Shown one piece after another: positions 10,163 to 14,816 of a stretch of 64,000 bases of DNA. Location of the stretch: NCBI RefSeq assembly GCF_037969725.1, contig NZ_CP150203.1, forward strand, positions 2,000,001 to 2,064,000, given 5' to 3'. The position numbers and the translations under genes were made by a program. How positions within the stretch are numbered: the stretch's first letter is position 1; every line of letters begins with the position of its first letter. The stretch is from Paenibacillus sp. FSL W8-0426. GTDB lineage: Bacteria > Bacillota > Bacilli > Paenibacillales > Paenibacillaceae. The notes under the pieces were generated by a model. That model made no database searches. It saw only the letters and a program-made list of their open reading frames with translations, and was not told the origin of the DNA.

Positions 10163-10215
10163 ATAGAAGTCGCCTGAAGCAAACGATATGGCGATGAGGA
10201 ATAAATACATATCCT

Positions 10216-10288
10216 GGGGCCTTAGCTCAGCTGGGAGAGCGCATCGCTGGCAGCGATGAGGTCAGGGGTTCGATCCCCCTAGGCTCCA
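10216..10288 (+). tRNA. tRNA-Ala (anticodon GGC)
   Basis: The 73-base cloverleaf has a 7-bp acceptor stem (GGGGCCT/AGGCTCC with one G-U), D arm, anticodon stem CATCG/CGATG, loop CTGGCAG giving anticodon GGC, and a T arm with TTCGATC. Base 73 is A and CCA is not encoded. Its 3' end is duplicated at 11157-11170. Confidence 0.96.
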
Positions 10289-10291
10289 TAC
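10278..10291 (+). repeat. Left copy of tRNA-Ala 3'-end repeat (possible attL)
   Basis: CCTAGGCTCCATAC spans the last 11 bases of the tRNA and three bases beyond it. It is identical to 11157-11170. Weaker similarity extends upstream through the T arm in both copies. Confidence 0.8.
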
Positions 10292-10305
10292 ATATTGAAC
10301 TGTTG

Positions 10306-10338
10306 AAACCCTTTGTATATAAGGGTTTTTCTTTTTTT
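10306..10338 (+). terminator. Terminator downstream of tRNA-Ala
   Basis: AAACCCTT (10306-10313) pairs with AAGGGTTT (10321-10328) and is followed by TTCTTTTTTT. The next 245 bases, up to the following gene, are A+T-rich and show no other feature. Confidence 0.8.
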
Positions 10339-10584
10339 CTGTGATATTAAAATGAGTCATTCTACATTTTTTCTCAGTTGGGGACAGGTTGTGTTTAACT
10401 TGCAATTGTGATTTGCATCACGGTTCAATTTTTCAATTGCGTGTGTATACAATATTTCTCGTAGAATCAACCTTTGATTGAGTAAATGAGTATTTTATGT
10501 CTGTAGTACGTTGAATAGTGGTGGGCCAATGTCTGTGATTCGAATTTATAGTAGGTAAATAGGAAGGAAAATTCTTCTCCGGTG

Positions 10585-11061
10585 CTATTTTGGTTCTATG
10601 ATAAATCGTTGCCAAGAACCAAGACATGGAAAATAGCCTCGTAAGTAGTTTTGACTACTCATATCAACACCAATATAGTGTTGTTGAACTGGTGAAAAGA
10701 TGACATTCCAGCTAGTTCCATCTAATGTTTCAGTATGAAGTGTGAATTCTTCAGTTGGACCAGCGCCTGCTTCGCTTGCTGTCAACCACCCATACTTTAT
10801 TGAAACATAACGTTGCATGCTAGGTGAGTACAAATTGAAGAGTCTGCTGTCATTTCCTCCTAATTGTCGCATTTCAAATTCTGCCAATCCATCGGAGTTG
10901 GGTTGAAATGCAATAAGTTTGTTGACATTGTTTGCGCCTGGCTCTGCAATGACGTATTGATTTGTTTCACTGAAAAGTATCGACACTTTCCCGTTAATTG
11001 GTAAGTCCATTGGTTCTTGCCGATATCCAAAACGAATCCAGTAACGTTGATGGTAATACAT
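10585..11061 (-). CDS. Unrecognised protein, beta-trefoil (fascin-like) pattern
   Basis: I do not recognise a specific family for this 158-residue protein. Three repeats of about 45 residues can be seen, each with a hydrophobic 'xxLxSPxxxxYVxx' start and an 'F-x-[LIV]' ending: VSILFSETNQYVIAEP, FNLYSPSMQRYVSIKY and NVIFSPVQQHYIGVDM. This is the pattern of beta-trefoil folds such as fascin-like domains, which bind ligands or sugars. There is no signal peptide. AGGAGG lies 8 bases before the ATG. The gene sits alone inside the segment bounded by tRNA-Ala repeats, and its A+T content is higher than its neighbours', suggesting acquisition. Confidence 0.75.
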   Translation of the reverse strand: MYYHQRYWIRFGYRQEPMDLPINGKVSILFSETNQYVIAEPGANNVNKLIAFQPNSDGLAEFEMRQLGGNDSRLFNLYSPSMQRYVSIKYGWLTASEAGAGPTEEFTLHTETLDGTSWNVIFSPVQQHYIGVDMSSQNYLRGYFPCLGSWQRFIIEPK

Positions 11062-11156
11062 TGTAAAAAACCTCCTGAAGCGTATTTTTTACACACTGTA
11101 TGTATCAGCGCTTGCCTAGGTTCGGGATACTTAATTGTATAAGTCAGGTTCGCCCT

Positions 11157-11170
11157 CCTAGGCTCCATAC
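11157..11170 (+). repeat. Right copy of tRNA-Ala 3'-end repeat (possible attR or tRNA relic)
   Basis: It is identical over 14 bases to 10278-10291. Upstream, 11143-11156 still resembles the tRNA T arm (GTCAGG..TTCG..CCCT) but with small deletions, so it cannot fold as a tRNA. Confidence 0.75.
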
Positions 11171-11176
11171 CAAAAG

Positions 11177-11219
11177 AACCCGCTAAACACAAGGATTTCC
11201 GAGTGTTTGGCGGGTTTTT
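11177..11219 (+). terminator. Strong terminator after the right tRNA repeat
   Basis: A 14-bp stem (11177-11190 with 11203-11216) with a 12-base loop is followed by TTTTTG. It may be the original terminator of the tRNA-Ala gene, left behind to the right of the inserted segment. Confidence 0.8.
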
Positions 11220-11273
11220 GCTATGTAGAAATTTGTTTGATTTCATGGTCGTGGTCATACACTAACCATTTTT

Positions 11274-11684
11274 TTATTCTGTTATATTTATTTCTTTGGC
11301 AAAAGATGTTGGAGGAATCGTATCCAGATGCTCTTTATCAGCAACAAAATTGATTTTCGCCCCGATCTTCAGGGCATTAAAATCATCTTTTCCCGGTGAG
11401 ATGTTTTTTAGATCCAGCCATTCTAAGTTATATTTATTCGCCTTTAAAATCTCTTGGACGGTCTGACCCGTAATTTCTTCTAGGTTTGACTGTAACTCGG
11501 GATTTTTTGTGTCCAACGCAAGAAGAATTTTCTTTTGTCCCTTTGACTCCTGTTTTGCAAGAACAATAGCCTCAGATGTCTTCAGTGCATCTTGCGGTTC
11601 TTTTGATTGGTTAGCATGATCACCTTTGCCACTGCAACCTGTAACCATAAGAACCAAAATGAAAACAGACCATATCGATTTCAT
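11274..11684 (-). CDS. Putative lipoprotein of unknown function
   Basis: This 136-residue protein begins MKSIWSVFILVLMVTGCSGKG, a short signal peptide with lipobox VTGC, so it should be acylated at Cys16 and anchored outside the membrane. The mature part is hydrophilic, lysine-rich and mixed alpha/beta, with no family I recognise. The frame is open upstream, but AAGGAGAG before ATG 11684 and the signal peptide fix the start. It lies just outside the tRNA-flanked segment and shares its low G+C, so it may belong to the same accessory spot. Confidence 0.7.
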   Translation of the reverse strand: MKSIWSVFILVLMVTGCSGKGDHANQSKEPQDALKTSEAIVLAKQESKGQKKILLALDTKNPELQSNLEEITGQTVQEILKANKYNLEWLDLKNISPGKDDFNALKIGAKINFVADKEHLDTIPPTSFAKEINITE

Positions 11685-12183
11685 TTCCCTTTCTCTCCTT
11701 CCCCAAAGGTACTTATTACATAAACTGAAAAACATCCACACGTTAACGGAGAGGCAGAACCAATCTGAAGAAGCGTAGCGTTCGCTTAAAAGCTTTCTGA
11801 AAGAAAGCTGCATCGGAAGCATAGTCTGTTCACCGGATTTTTCCCTTCAAAAAGGGGATTCGAAAAATCTGGGAATAACAGCGATTGGAAGATGGTACTG
11901 CGCTCGCAGTGGTCTAGTGTGATTGATTATTGCGCTTTATTAGACGGTTAAAGGGATACGAAGGTTGCACTCAAACGAAAAGGAGAGTGGTTAAACCAAC
12001 AACGTGTAGTAAGGTGCAAGCGACACCCCGGGGCCAGGAAGATACGTTAAGCCATCCCTTCCCAAAGATCGTTTCAGTTATCGCAACAACGGTAACGAGG
12101 AACGATCTTTCTTTGTACGGAAAATCCATCTGGTTATAATAGATTAGAAATCGACCATATCACTTTCAAAAAAGGAGAAATAA
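11685..12183. other. Non-coding stretch with several hairpins
   Basis: About 500 bases hold no convincing gene. An AGCTTTCT/AGAAAGCT hairpin lies at 11791-11809. A two-part hairpin lies at 12064-12110: outer stem AAAGATCGTT/AACGATCTTT, inner stem GTTATCG/CGGTAAC, followed by CTTTG. The outer hairpin may be a terminator, but no complete gene precedes it. Confidence 0.5.
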
Positions 12184-12903
12184 ATGAAAAATTATATCAT
12201 TTTTGGCGCCAGCAAGGGATTGGGGGATGCATTCGTCAAAGGGCTGCCGGAGCAGGGGGATCAAGTATGGATCGTGTCCCGGAGCAAGCCGGGCAGCTTG
12301 GCACTGAACGATGGCGTCAAACGGACATGGATCGAAGCGGATCTGGCGCGGCCGGATGCAGCACGGAAAATAACGGATGCTTTGGCATCTGAACCGATCG
12401 ATGTTCTGATATATAACGTGGGCATTTGGGAGAAGGCAGGATTCGAGGAGCATTACGACTTCGAGAAGGATGACCCGGCAGACATCGCCAACATCGTTCA
12501 TGTGAATATCACCTCGACCATCACTGCCATTCAGGCGTTATTGCCGAACGTTCGCATGTCGGGGGCGGGAAAAATTATTCTGATCGGATCTACCGCCGGA
12601 TTGGAGCATACGAACAATGCACAAGTATCGTTTGTGGCCTCCAAATTCGGACTGCGCGGCATCGCCAATGCTCTAAGAGAACATGTTCGCAAAGATGGCA
12701 TTGCGGTAACCTGCATCAATCCGGGAGAATTGGCTGCCGCAGTCCCTTATGAGGAAGGGGCGGACAAAGCGATTGCCCTGTATGGGGGAACCCGTATTCC
12801 GGTTCAGGACATCGTATCCATCGTTAAATGTATTGTCAGTCTCTCCAGCGCAGCTTGTGTTAAGGAAATCCATGTTCCGGCGATCACGGATTTGAATGCA
12901 TGA
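12184..12903 (+). CDS. Short-chain dehydrogenase/reductase-like protein with altered active site
   Basis: The 239-residue Rossmann protein has the SDR cofactor motif GASKGLG at residues 8-14, an 'NVG' near 79, and the catalytic serine region 'IILIGSTAG'. Where classical SDRs have YxxxK, this one reads FVASK, so the catalytic tyrosine is phenylalanine while the lysine is kept. It may be inactive as a reductase, act as a sensor, or use another residue. AAAAGGAG precedes the ATG. It stands alone between the hairpin-rich gap and its own terminator, so the context does not suggest a substrate. Confidence 0.88.
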   Translation: MKNYIIFGASKGLGDAFVKGLPEQGDQVWIVSRSKPGSLALNDGVKRTWIEADLARPDAARKITDALASEPIDVLIYNVGIWEKAGFEEHYDFEKDDPADIANIVHVNITSTITAIQALLPNVRMSGAGKIILIGSTAGLEHTNNAQVSFVASKFGLRGIANALREHVRKDGIAVTCINPGELAAAVPYEEGADKAIALYGGTRIPVQDIVSIVKCIVSLSSAACVKEIHVPAITDLNA

Positions 12904-12944
12904 CGGACTGAAGTTACGCGATCCGCGCCAAAGACATCAACTTA

Positions 12945-12970
12945 AACACGCTCCCCGCAGCGTGTTTTTT
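12945..12970 (+). terminator. Terminator of the SDR gene
   Basis: ACACGCT (12946-12952) pairs with AGCGTGT (12959-12965) around a CCCCGC loop and is followed by TTTTTG. The stretch from here to 13163 shows no gene. Confidence 0.85.
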
Positions 12971-13163
12971 GCCATTCAATCCGTTAGCTCATATCCTGCG
13001 CCGAAGCCGCAAAGCGAAAATGATGTATTCGTCCCAAGGTTCGAGTGATAAAATAGATTACGGCTCCGCCAAACGGGATATTCCCGCTCGGGCAGCGCCA
13101 AATGAACGGACTAATCCTTAAATCATACACTGACTGTCATTAACGATACGGAGGAAACCCTCA

Positions 13164-14816
13164 ATGAAAAACTCTGAGTGGTCGGGATCATACTTTCCCA
13201 ATTTTGTGATGGAAGGCATTCAATCCCTATACTTCACTTCCAATCGGCCGCTCCATACCATTCATGAACATGTTCCCGTGCTGCTGGCGGTAAACAGCGG
13301 CGCGAGTTCGCTGCAACGGGAACAAGAAACCTATGAATTGTCGCAGGGCACGTCTGTTTTGCTTCCGCCAGGCGCCAAGGCGGTCGTGACGGCCGGGTCT
13401 GGACAGCCACTGCACATATATATGCTGACGATTAGCACGCAAGCCCAGGCACGTACGACCCATGAGGGCTCGATGAGCCGGGTGAGCATGATTGGTTCAG
13501 CCAAAAACGTGGAGTATTTCATCGACGCACCGGCGATTGCGGCCCTGCTGGAAGAACTGTTTATACATCGCTTGCCCGAAAGCGAGACCCGGCATATGCG
13601 CAATCAGATCGTATTTCACCAGGTCTTGCTAGCATTGCTGGAACGTATGGAAAGCGGGGATTCTTTTTCCGATCTGCCCTCGATGGAACGAAGCTTGGCC
13701 TATATGGAAGGCCATTTTAACGAAAAAATTACGACAGAGCTTTTGTCCGAGATGGCCGGGGTCAGCCGTTCGCATTACTCCATTTTGTTCAAGCAGATGA
13801 CCGGATTCTCTCCGAACGAATATTTATCCAAGCTGCGCGTGCATCGGGCCAAAGAATTGATCATTGGCAGCACGTTATCCCTAAGGGACATTGCGTTAAA
13901 GGTAGGCTACAAGGACGAATTCTATCTCAGCCGCCGTTTCAAACACCAGACGGGAGAAAGTCCCTCATCCTATAGTCGATCCCGAAACGTTCAACGGTCT
14001 GCAGTATGGTTTGCGCCATATGCAAGCCACCTGTTTTTGCTTGGCGTGGAGCCATCCATCGTTATTTCGGAAAGCAGCGAATACGTAAGGGCAGATGGTC
14101 TGCTGACTCCGCAAAGCGTGCGATTTATTCATATGGACACCCCTCCCGAGCAAATAAAAGCTGCTTTGCAGGAGGAAAACGTCGATTTGATCATTGCTGC
14201 AAAGCAACATCTGCAGGAGACCGGTTTGACTGCCGAGCAATTGAGATCGGTCGCCCCGATCATTGAGGTTCCATGGATGGAACTCGGGTGGAAAGAACAT
14301 TTGCGTATGATTGCCCACGCGATTCGAAAGAGCGAAATAGCAGAGCGTTGGTTAGCCGATTTCGAACAACAAGAACGACGGGCAAGGGAGACGGTGCAGG
14401 AGCAGAAGGTGGTTGATGAAACCGTAACCATTGTCGTCATCAAACCGGAAAGGTTGCAAATTTACGGGGCAAGGAATGCAGGTTATGTCCTGTACCATTC
14501 GTTGGGATTGCAGCCTTCGGCAAAGATTGCCCAGGAAATAGAACATTTCGGGGATGAGTTTCATTCCGTTTCCATCGCACGATCCGAACTGAAGGAGTAC
14601 GAAGGAAATTGGTTTCTGGTTATGGTGTTCCCGGATGAGAAGGGGGCTACCGCCCATGCCGAGCGGATTTTTGCCTCCGAGGAATGGCAAGGTCTGAGCG
14701 CGGTTAAACAGAATCGGGTGCATGTGTTGGATCAAGAGGAATGGATTCCGTATAATCCCGTTTCTGTTCGTCTTCAGCTTGAACGGGCGCTCAAGCTTTG
14801 GGCGGGGAATCAATAA
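13164..14816 (+). CDS. AraC-family regulator fused to a siderophore-binding domain (Btr-like)
   Basis: This is a 550-residue, three-part regulator. Residues 1-170 resemble a cupin-type AraC sensor, about 175-280 form the two-helix-turn-helix AraC DNA-binding domain ('TTELLSEMAGVSRSHYSILFKQMTGFSPNEY'), and 280-550 form a FecB/FeuA-like substrate-binding domain without a signal peptide. This architecture is that of Bacillus Btr, which binds ferri-bacillibactin in the cytosol and activates the feu uptake genes. The next three genes are a siderophore binding protein and two permeases, so the same logic is likely here. The ligand cannot be read from sequence. GGAGG precedes the ATG. Confidence 0.9.
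   Translation: MKNSEWSGSYFPNFVMEGIQSLYFTSNRPLHTIHEHVPVLLAVNSGASSLQREQETYELSQGTSVLLPPGAKAVVTAGSGQPLHIYMLTISTQAQARTTHEGSMSRVSMIGSAKNVEYFIDAPAIAALLEELFIHRLPESETRHMRNQIVFHQVLLALLERMESGDSFSDLPSMERSLAYMEGHFNEKITTELLSEMAGVSRSHYSILFKQMTGFSPNEYLSKLRVHRAKELIIGSTLSLRDIALKVGYKDEFYLSRRFKHQTGESPSSYSRSRNVQRSAVWFAPYASHLFLLGVEPSIVISESSEYVRADGLLTPQSVRFIHMDTPPEQIKAALQEENVDLIIAAKQHLQETGLTAEQLRSVAPIIEVPWMELGWKEHLRMIAHAIRKSEIAERWLADFEQQERRARETVQEQKVVDETVTIVVIKPERLQIYGARNAGYVLYHSLGLQPSAKIAQEIEHFGDEFHSVSIARSELKEYEGNWFLVMVFPDEKGATAHAERIFASEEWQGLSAVKQNRVHVLDQEEWIPYNPVSVRLQLERALKLWAGNQ

Follow-up and report, generated by a model that had tools for sequence, protein, structure and literature searches.

The segment at 10290–11170 of the window, by which we mean the whole 64,000-nucleotide stretch analysed from the Paenibacillus sp. 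FSL W8-0426 genome (6.91 Mb, single contig), is a well-supported, ordinary decayed insertion, of a known kind, at a busy hotspot. It is highly probable that what inserted, in the 3′ half of a tRNA-Ala(GGC) gene, was an element of the tyrosine-integrase type, most probably a temperate prophage, of which an eroded part is left. This reading draws on a duplicated tRNA end, a terminator found directly on the tRNA in relatives, varied contents at the same site, an arm motif, leader homology and the rarity of the one gene that the segment carries.

Repeat, terminators and cargo gene

An intact tRNA-Ala(GGC) gene stands at the left end of the segment (Table 1), and CCTAGGCTCCATAC occurs exactly at its 3′ end and again 879 bases downstream (10278 and 11157), as an earlier note on this DNA had reported. 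Allowing up to two mismatches gave no match beyond these two; shuffles held 0.26 matches of this type on average, and two or more in 2 of 100. The best local alignment of the tRNA with positions 10301–11300 fell on the 28 bases of the right copy with a score of 35, which none of 500 shuffles reached (maximum 23), and the decayed T-arm similarity described beside that copy is therefore real. Its interpretation as attR is supported, though the copy is degraded and lacks the 5′ part of the 44-bp core. Tested on this segment, a restored tRNA and a displaced tRNA 3′ fragment are both present.

Each copy is followed by a terminator, as had been described. The left one was in the list of the terminator scan and would have arrived with the element; the right one was absent from that list, and 11171–11222 folds at −29.3 kcal/mol with a T5 tail. 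The DNA between the repeats is A+T-rich (G+C 0.373 versus 0.513 for the window) and holds no intact integrase gene, in keeping with the earlier description, and no phage structural or packaging genes. Only one ORF of more than 100 codons lies wholly between the repeats, which agrees with the single gene counted before; to it have to be added a leader remnant and a probable 3′-end scrap of an integrase gene.

Table 1. Features of the tRNA-Ala(GGC) locus in the window
Feature	Position	Strand	Remark
tRNA-Ala(GGC), intact	10215–10289	+	ARAGORN; 3′ half is the attL core
attL core, 44-bp block	10247–10290	+	set by G057/G058; matched in several second copies of relatives
CCTAGGCTCCATAC, left copy	10278–10291	+	exact match
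Left terminator	10305–10329	+	in terminator scan list; similar stem at left ends of G010 and G072
Probable integrase gene 3′-end scrap	10360–10470	−	shared with G072
TTGGGGAC arm-type site	10378–10385	+	
Decayed second TTGGGGAC copy	10389–10396	+	expected about 11 bp on
Late-operon leader remnant	10469–10584 (116 bp)	+	similarity to G052, G037, G055 and G017
Cargo gene, 158 aa, possibly fascin-like	about 10585–11061 (ORF 10588–11061)	−	fills most of the segment
Right copy: decayed tRNA 3′ end, attR remnant	11143–11170	+	exact 14-mer at 11157–11170
Right terminator	11174–11219	+	adjoins the tRNA in ten of the 74 relatives
Degenerate TGGTCAC arm site (TGGTCAT) of probable older element	11252–11258	+	83 bp past right copy

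The 158-codon ORF is intact and would be the cargo of the element. Far from being carried by all relatives, its gene occurs in 1 of 75 genus genomes and 1 of 394 family genomes, and among 5.8 billion proteins we found one cluster of four sequences, 89% identical to the 158-aa protein. This sole relative carries the name ‘fascin domain-containing’ in one source and reaches E 0.11 against Pfam Fascin, below the curated cut-off; the earlier suggestion of a beta-trefoil-like protein is weakly supported by it, and a Pfam search up to E 10 gave no match for the window protein. A PDB sequence search returned nothing, a profile search added no relative, no relative was present in viral contigs, and an AlphaFold2 model from two sequences had a pLDDT of 35.6. 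Of phage records, 24 were matched, and among the 20 matches listed only the tRNA part of the query was involved.

The tRNA-Ala(GGC) locus in Paenibacillus relatives

DNA of the nrdR–tRNA region was matched in all 75 genus genomes, and up to 20 kb was taken from each of the 74 relatives, several contigs ending sooner. Within the DNA taken, a second exact CCTAGGCTCCA follows the first in 13 of 74 relatives, 1.9 to 17.7 kb off; in G072 and G028 the first core copy has mismatches and the second is exact, and G043 and G020 have a second core some 54–55 kb away. In many second copies the anticodon loop marks the start of the shared block, and the DNA ahead of it is unrelated. G057, with two core copies, and G058, with one, form a filled and empty pair, their left sides 99.9% and their right sides 98.4% alike with an overlap of exactly 44 bp. 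The G057 interior is found again in G013 at about 99%, where the flank is 74% alike, and together with the pair this identifies the tRNA-Ala(GGC) site as a functional attachment site.

In 10 of 74 relatives (G048, G049, G036, G028, G064, G033, G034, G037, G022 and G016), the right junction of the window segment (from 11147) aligns straight onto the tRNA, and in three more (G010, G071 and G030) it follows a second copy; several other loci show terminator-like matches at a greater distance, those of G053 and G006, for instance, starting at window positions 11158–11160. The site without this segment is thus found in genus relatives, both in these ten junctions and, for the same core, in G057/G058. 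An insertion at the tRNA 3′ end, as proposed earlier, is supported by the right terminator directly on the tRNA, which is the empty-site arrangement that the note had suggested looking for. The other cargoes it had suggested were found too: between the same tRNA-end repeats, other genomes hold varied contents, with or without an integrase. For the relatives, ‘no integrase’ means none by motif, since the regular expression used gives false positives (for example, a 294-aa ORF in G067 that is unlike an integrase) and may miss some.

Up to 10391 the window is matched by G010, a genome of the same species, with 97% identity overall, and over the right flank (11147–12977) with 95%. Inside the segment, at 10291–10391, identity to G010 is 79%, as against 97% in the nrdR region, and the two may therefore hold independent insertions of related elements. 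The rest of the G010 interior, about 6 kb, is unrelated to the window segment, so that comparable ends enclose a different 6.2-kb interior, in which we found a Dit fragment, the N-terminus of a prophage tail endopeptidase and an acyltransferase. The G072 interior holds a tail-protein fragment and a superinfection-exclusion lipoprotein, and G028 offers a parallel case, 0.74 kb long, which contains an integrase fragment and carries an arm pair at each end. In G010, the 5′ half of the left tRNA-Ala (L041:771–845) is unlike the GGC gene and looks UGC-type; ARAGORN assigns this tRNA no anticodon, and gene conversion or assembly error would both fit.

The terminator at 11177 had been taken for the original tRNA terminator. 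This holds relative to the present insertion and fails in the absolute sense, since in G048, G049, G036 and G028 it forms the left end of an att-bounded segment belonging to another element class; it probably came with an older element. At the offset of the TGGTCAT site in the window, TGGTCAC is exact in G010 and occurs in pairs in G036 and G030. This site and the role of the right terminator in the four relatives make two generations of insertion probable in the window, the insertion reported here probably being the younger. A search of 11301–13300 for the right end of the older TGGTCAC-armed element found none (score 18, with 174 of 300 shuffles as high). The DNA at 11172–12183 is also low in G+C (0.38–0.43), up to an SDR gene at 12184 (0.52), and a 137-aa lipoprotein-like gene at 11274–11687, with a weak DUF3221 match (E 0.0018), may belong to the older element.

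Phage-type remnants and the origin of the segment

Across the genus, 8 of the 71 loci that could be scored have TTGGGGAC 55–125 bp past the first core, versus 0.1 expected from the locus-wide rate. Eighteen of the 75 genomes contain exact pairs of it, 11–12 bp apart, at 24 places in all; the window's own genome contains none. ARAGORN called a tRNA at 16 of the 24 pair loci (11 of them Leu(UAA); one about 350 bp away) and none at the other eight, one of which is truncated where the contig stops, next to a tRNA-Leu 3′ end. At 7 of the 24, an ORF of 426–450 aa, read as an integrase gene, overlaps or adjoins the pair; the ORF in G037 was scanned and is an integrase, and at L123 (tRNA-Ala) a 450-aa ORF is also near the pair. 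The motif adjoins integrase genes at tRNA-Ala in XY044 and elsewhere at tRNA-Leu and tRNA-Val. XY044 combines the pair at tRNA-Ala with a 409-aa integrase, and has a second core 67 kb on; at that end an arm pair stands some 150 bp inward. No TTGGGGAC was found at the right end of the window segment, whose sequence suggests a damaged attR, and in the window's own genome the nearest protein to the XY044 integrase is 29% identical.

The window and G072 are 71% identical over 10291–10458, including the minus-strand YTHAIEKLNRDA, and in G072 an integrase-like box, LRHTTATYLMSKN, stands just upstream of the shared part in another frame. Through G072 only, this stretch of the window is a probable integrase 3′-end scrap: in a comparison of the window peptide with 12 integrases, 78 of 200 shuffles scored as high, the peptide had no Pfam match, and two of its three non-self genome hits were chance matches beside unrelated frames.

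The neighbouring 116 bp are 78% identical over 118 bp to G052 DNA located between an HNH gene and a gene that we take to be ArpU-like, the G037 version of which matches phrog_21810. In G037 the block is followed by HNH, terminase small and large subunit and portal genes, and it lies 13.4 kb (11.8 kb in G055) from a tRNA-Leu end with TTGGGGAC arms. Its direction from attL is the same in the window as in the G037 and G055 prophages; phage-type control DNA is thus present in the expected direction. Owing to its repeats and a hairpin upstream of HNH and terminase genes, the block was also considered as a phage cos (packaging) site, a reading dropped in favour of a late-operon leader because, in four of the eight sources scanned (L194, L195, L196 and L205), the DNA past the first hairpin exceeds the gathering score for epsC RNA (RF01735). 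The window remnant itself has no epsC RNA score above gathering, and the stem of its hairpin is broken. The epsC/EAR RNAs lie in prophage-like regions of G052 (two), G037 and G055, at L194:1635–1738, L195:1415–1522, L196:1584–1688 and L205:1420–1525, the first, third and fourth in the late-operon-leader position of ArpU–HNH regions; a search for literature on epsC/EAR RNA in prophage leaders found nothing clearly on the subject.

On the prophage reading, an element would have integrated into the 3′ half of tRNA-Ala(GGC) by a tyrosine integrase, restoring the tRNA with its own 3′ half and terminator (attL) and displacing the earlier 3′ half and terminator rightward (attR). By one deletion, the attL end would have been fused, inside the integrase 3′ end, with the late-operon leader; by a second, the leader with the cargo gene near attR. 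Together with decay of attR and the arm sites, this would have left 0.88 kb with the ends, the leader scrap and one gene. We infer this two-deletion history, and a prophage origin for the whole; the TTGGGGAC arms and the leader block, in the same direction from attL, are shared with the G037 and G055 prophages. Counting against a prophage, the cargo gene has no PHROG match or viral-contig relative, and XY044, which has these arms at this very tRNA, is known from its integrase alone, not as a phage. This last point, the lack of any phage gene in the segment and non-phage cargo at the site, such as restriction-modification and CBASS genes, would also suit a real insertion of another sort, for example a different integrative island that gained the leader-like block by recombination. 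We consider this unlikely, as the block stands in prophage orientation, the same arm motif occurs beside the G037 and G055 prophages, and the G010 and G072 interiors contain tail and superinfection-exclusion genes. Hardly credible is the absence of any insertion, with the right copy as the remnant of a second, duplicated tRNA gene: a decayed tRNA 3′ end is indeed all that shows, but the right junction is fused to a single tRNA in the ten relatives, the second copies that start at the anticodon loop have unrelated DNA before them, and the right copy is not a conserved second tRNA.

Between the decayed and the helper-dependent element that the earlier note had offered, decay fits better, because attR lacks the 5′ part of the core and an arm site, and because, in the window's own genome, exact TTGGGGAC pairs are absent and the integrase most like that of XY044 is 29% identical to it. 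Even with a helper, the segment is unlikely to move as it now stands, and a small element of that kind, dependent on an integrase supplied in trans by another element, we hold to be very improbable. Segments without an integrase (by motif) that share the tRNA core are common (G039, G040, G048, G049 and G036), that of G036 has paired arm sites at both ends, and the window cargo ORF is intact, but the left arm pair of the window segment is half decayed, in addition to the damage at its right end. A helper integrase could come from outside the genome. There is likewise only a slight chance that the segment moves, or moved as a one-gene cassette, in trans through integrases sharing the tRNA-Ala site, as other att-bounded segments there without a detected integrase may do.

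Related systems and other elements at the site

Cis-mobilizable elements (CIMEs) are att-bounded cargo without recombination genes. The eroded prophage proposed here resembles CIMEs and other hitchers (PMC5704250, PMC11389934) in being att-bounded cargo of this type, and differs from CIMEs in its damaged attR and in that no matching helper was seen in the genome. The Islander database (PMC4383910) covers tyrosine-integrase genomic islands in tRNA genes; like these, the segment has a restored tRNA at one end, a displaced fragment at the other and variable content at its site, but it has no intact integrase, its fragment is decayed and it measures 0.88 kb. In common with decayed or ‘grounded’ prophages (PMC6379469), it would be phage-derived DNA deprived of excision and growth genes, possibly with cargo kept, although it is far smaller, comprising the ends, a leader scrap and one gene. 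It offers a stepwise view of how an inserted element shrinks to its ends and one gene and passes for native DNA.

The comparison further reveals tRNA-Ala(GGC) as a very active hotspot in Paenibacillus, at which newcomers swap the tRNA 3′ half and its terminator. At least four arm motifs occur at the site (TTGGGGAC, TGGTCAC, TGGTAAC and TGGTGCC), which suggests that several integrase specificities share it. Between tRNA-Ala and the second core, L044, L051, L049, L065, L077 and L068 contain att-bounded segments that have few ORFs and in which the motif detected no integrase. The contents include an SLH protein in G039 (with a similar ORF in G040), a CAP/Cu_amine_oxidN1 protein in G048, a DNA methylase in G049, a CBASS-like cyclase with a 2TM effector in G002, and a methylase with a restriction-enzyme-like protein in G036. 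Segments without a detected integrase thus hold defence or surface genes, which makes the site a practical hunting ground for new defence systems.

In G051, G035 and G060, an ORF of 564–571 aa lies between an opposite-strand tRNA-Ala(GGC) and a forward tRNA-Ala 3′ part (L085:1162–3065, L086:3037–4942 and L091:9148–11229). The G051 ORF was scanned and contains Resolvase, Recombinase and Zn_ribbon_recom domains. G060 also has tRNA-Lys at both tRNA-Ala positions, and in G035 and G060 the nrdR-side tRNA match ends near 10237–10238. The layout looks like that of a serine-recombinase element which interrupts the tRNA and supplies a replacement for it; phage tRNAs required for lysogeny are described in PMC10865867.
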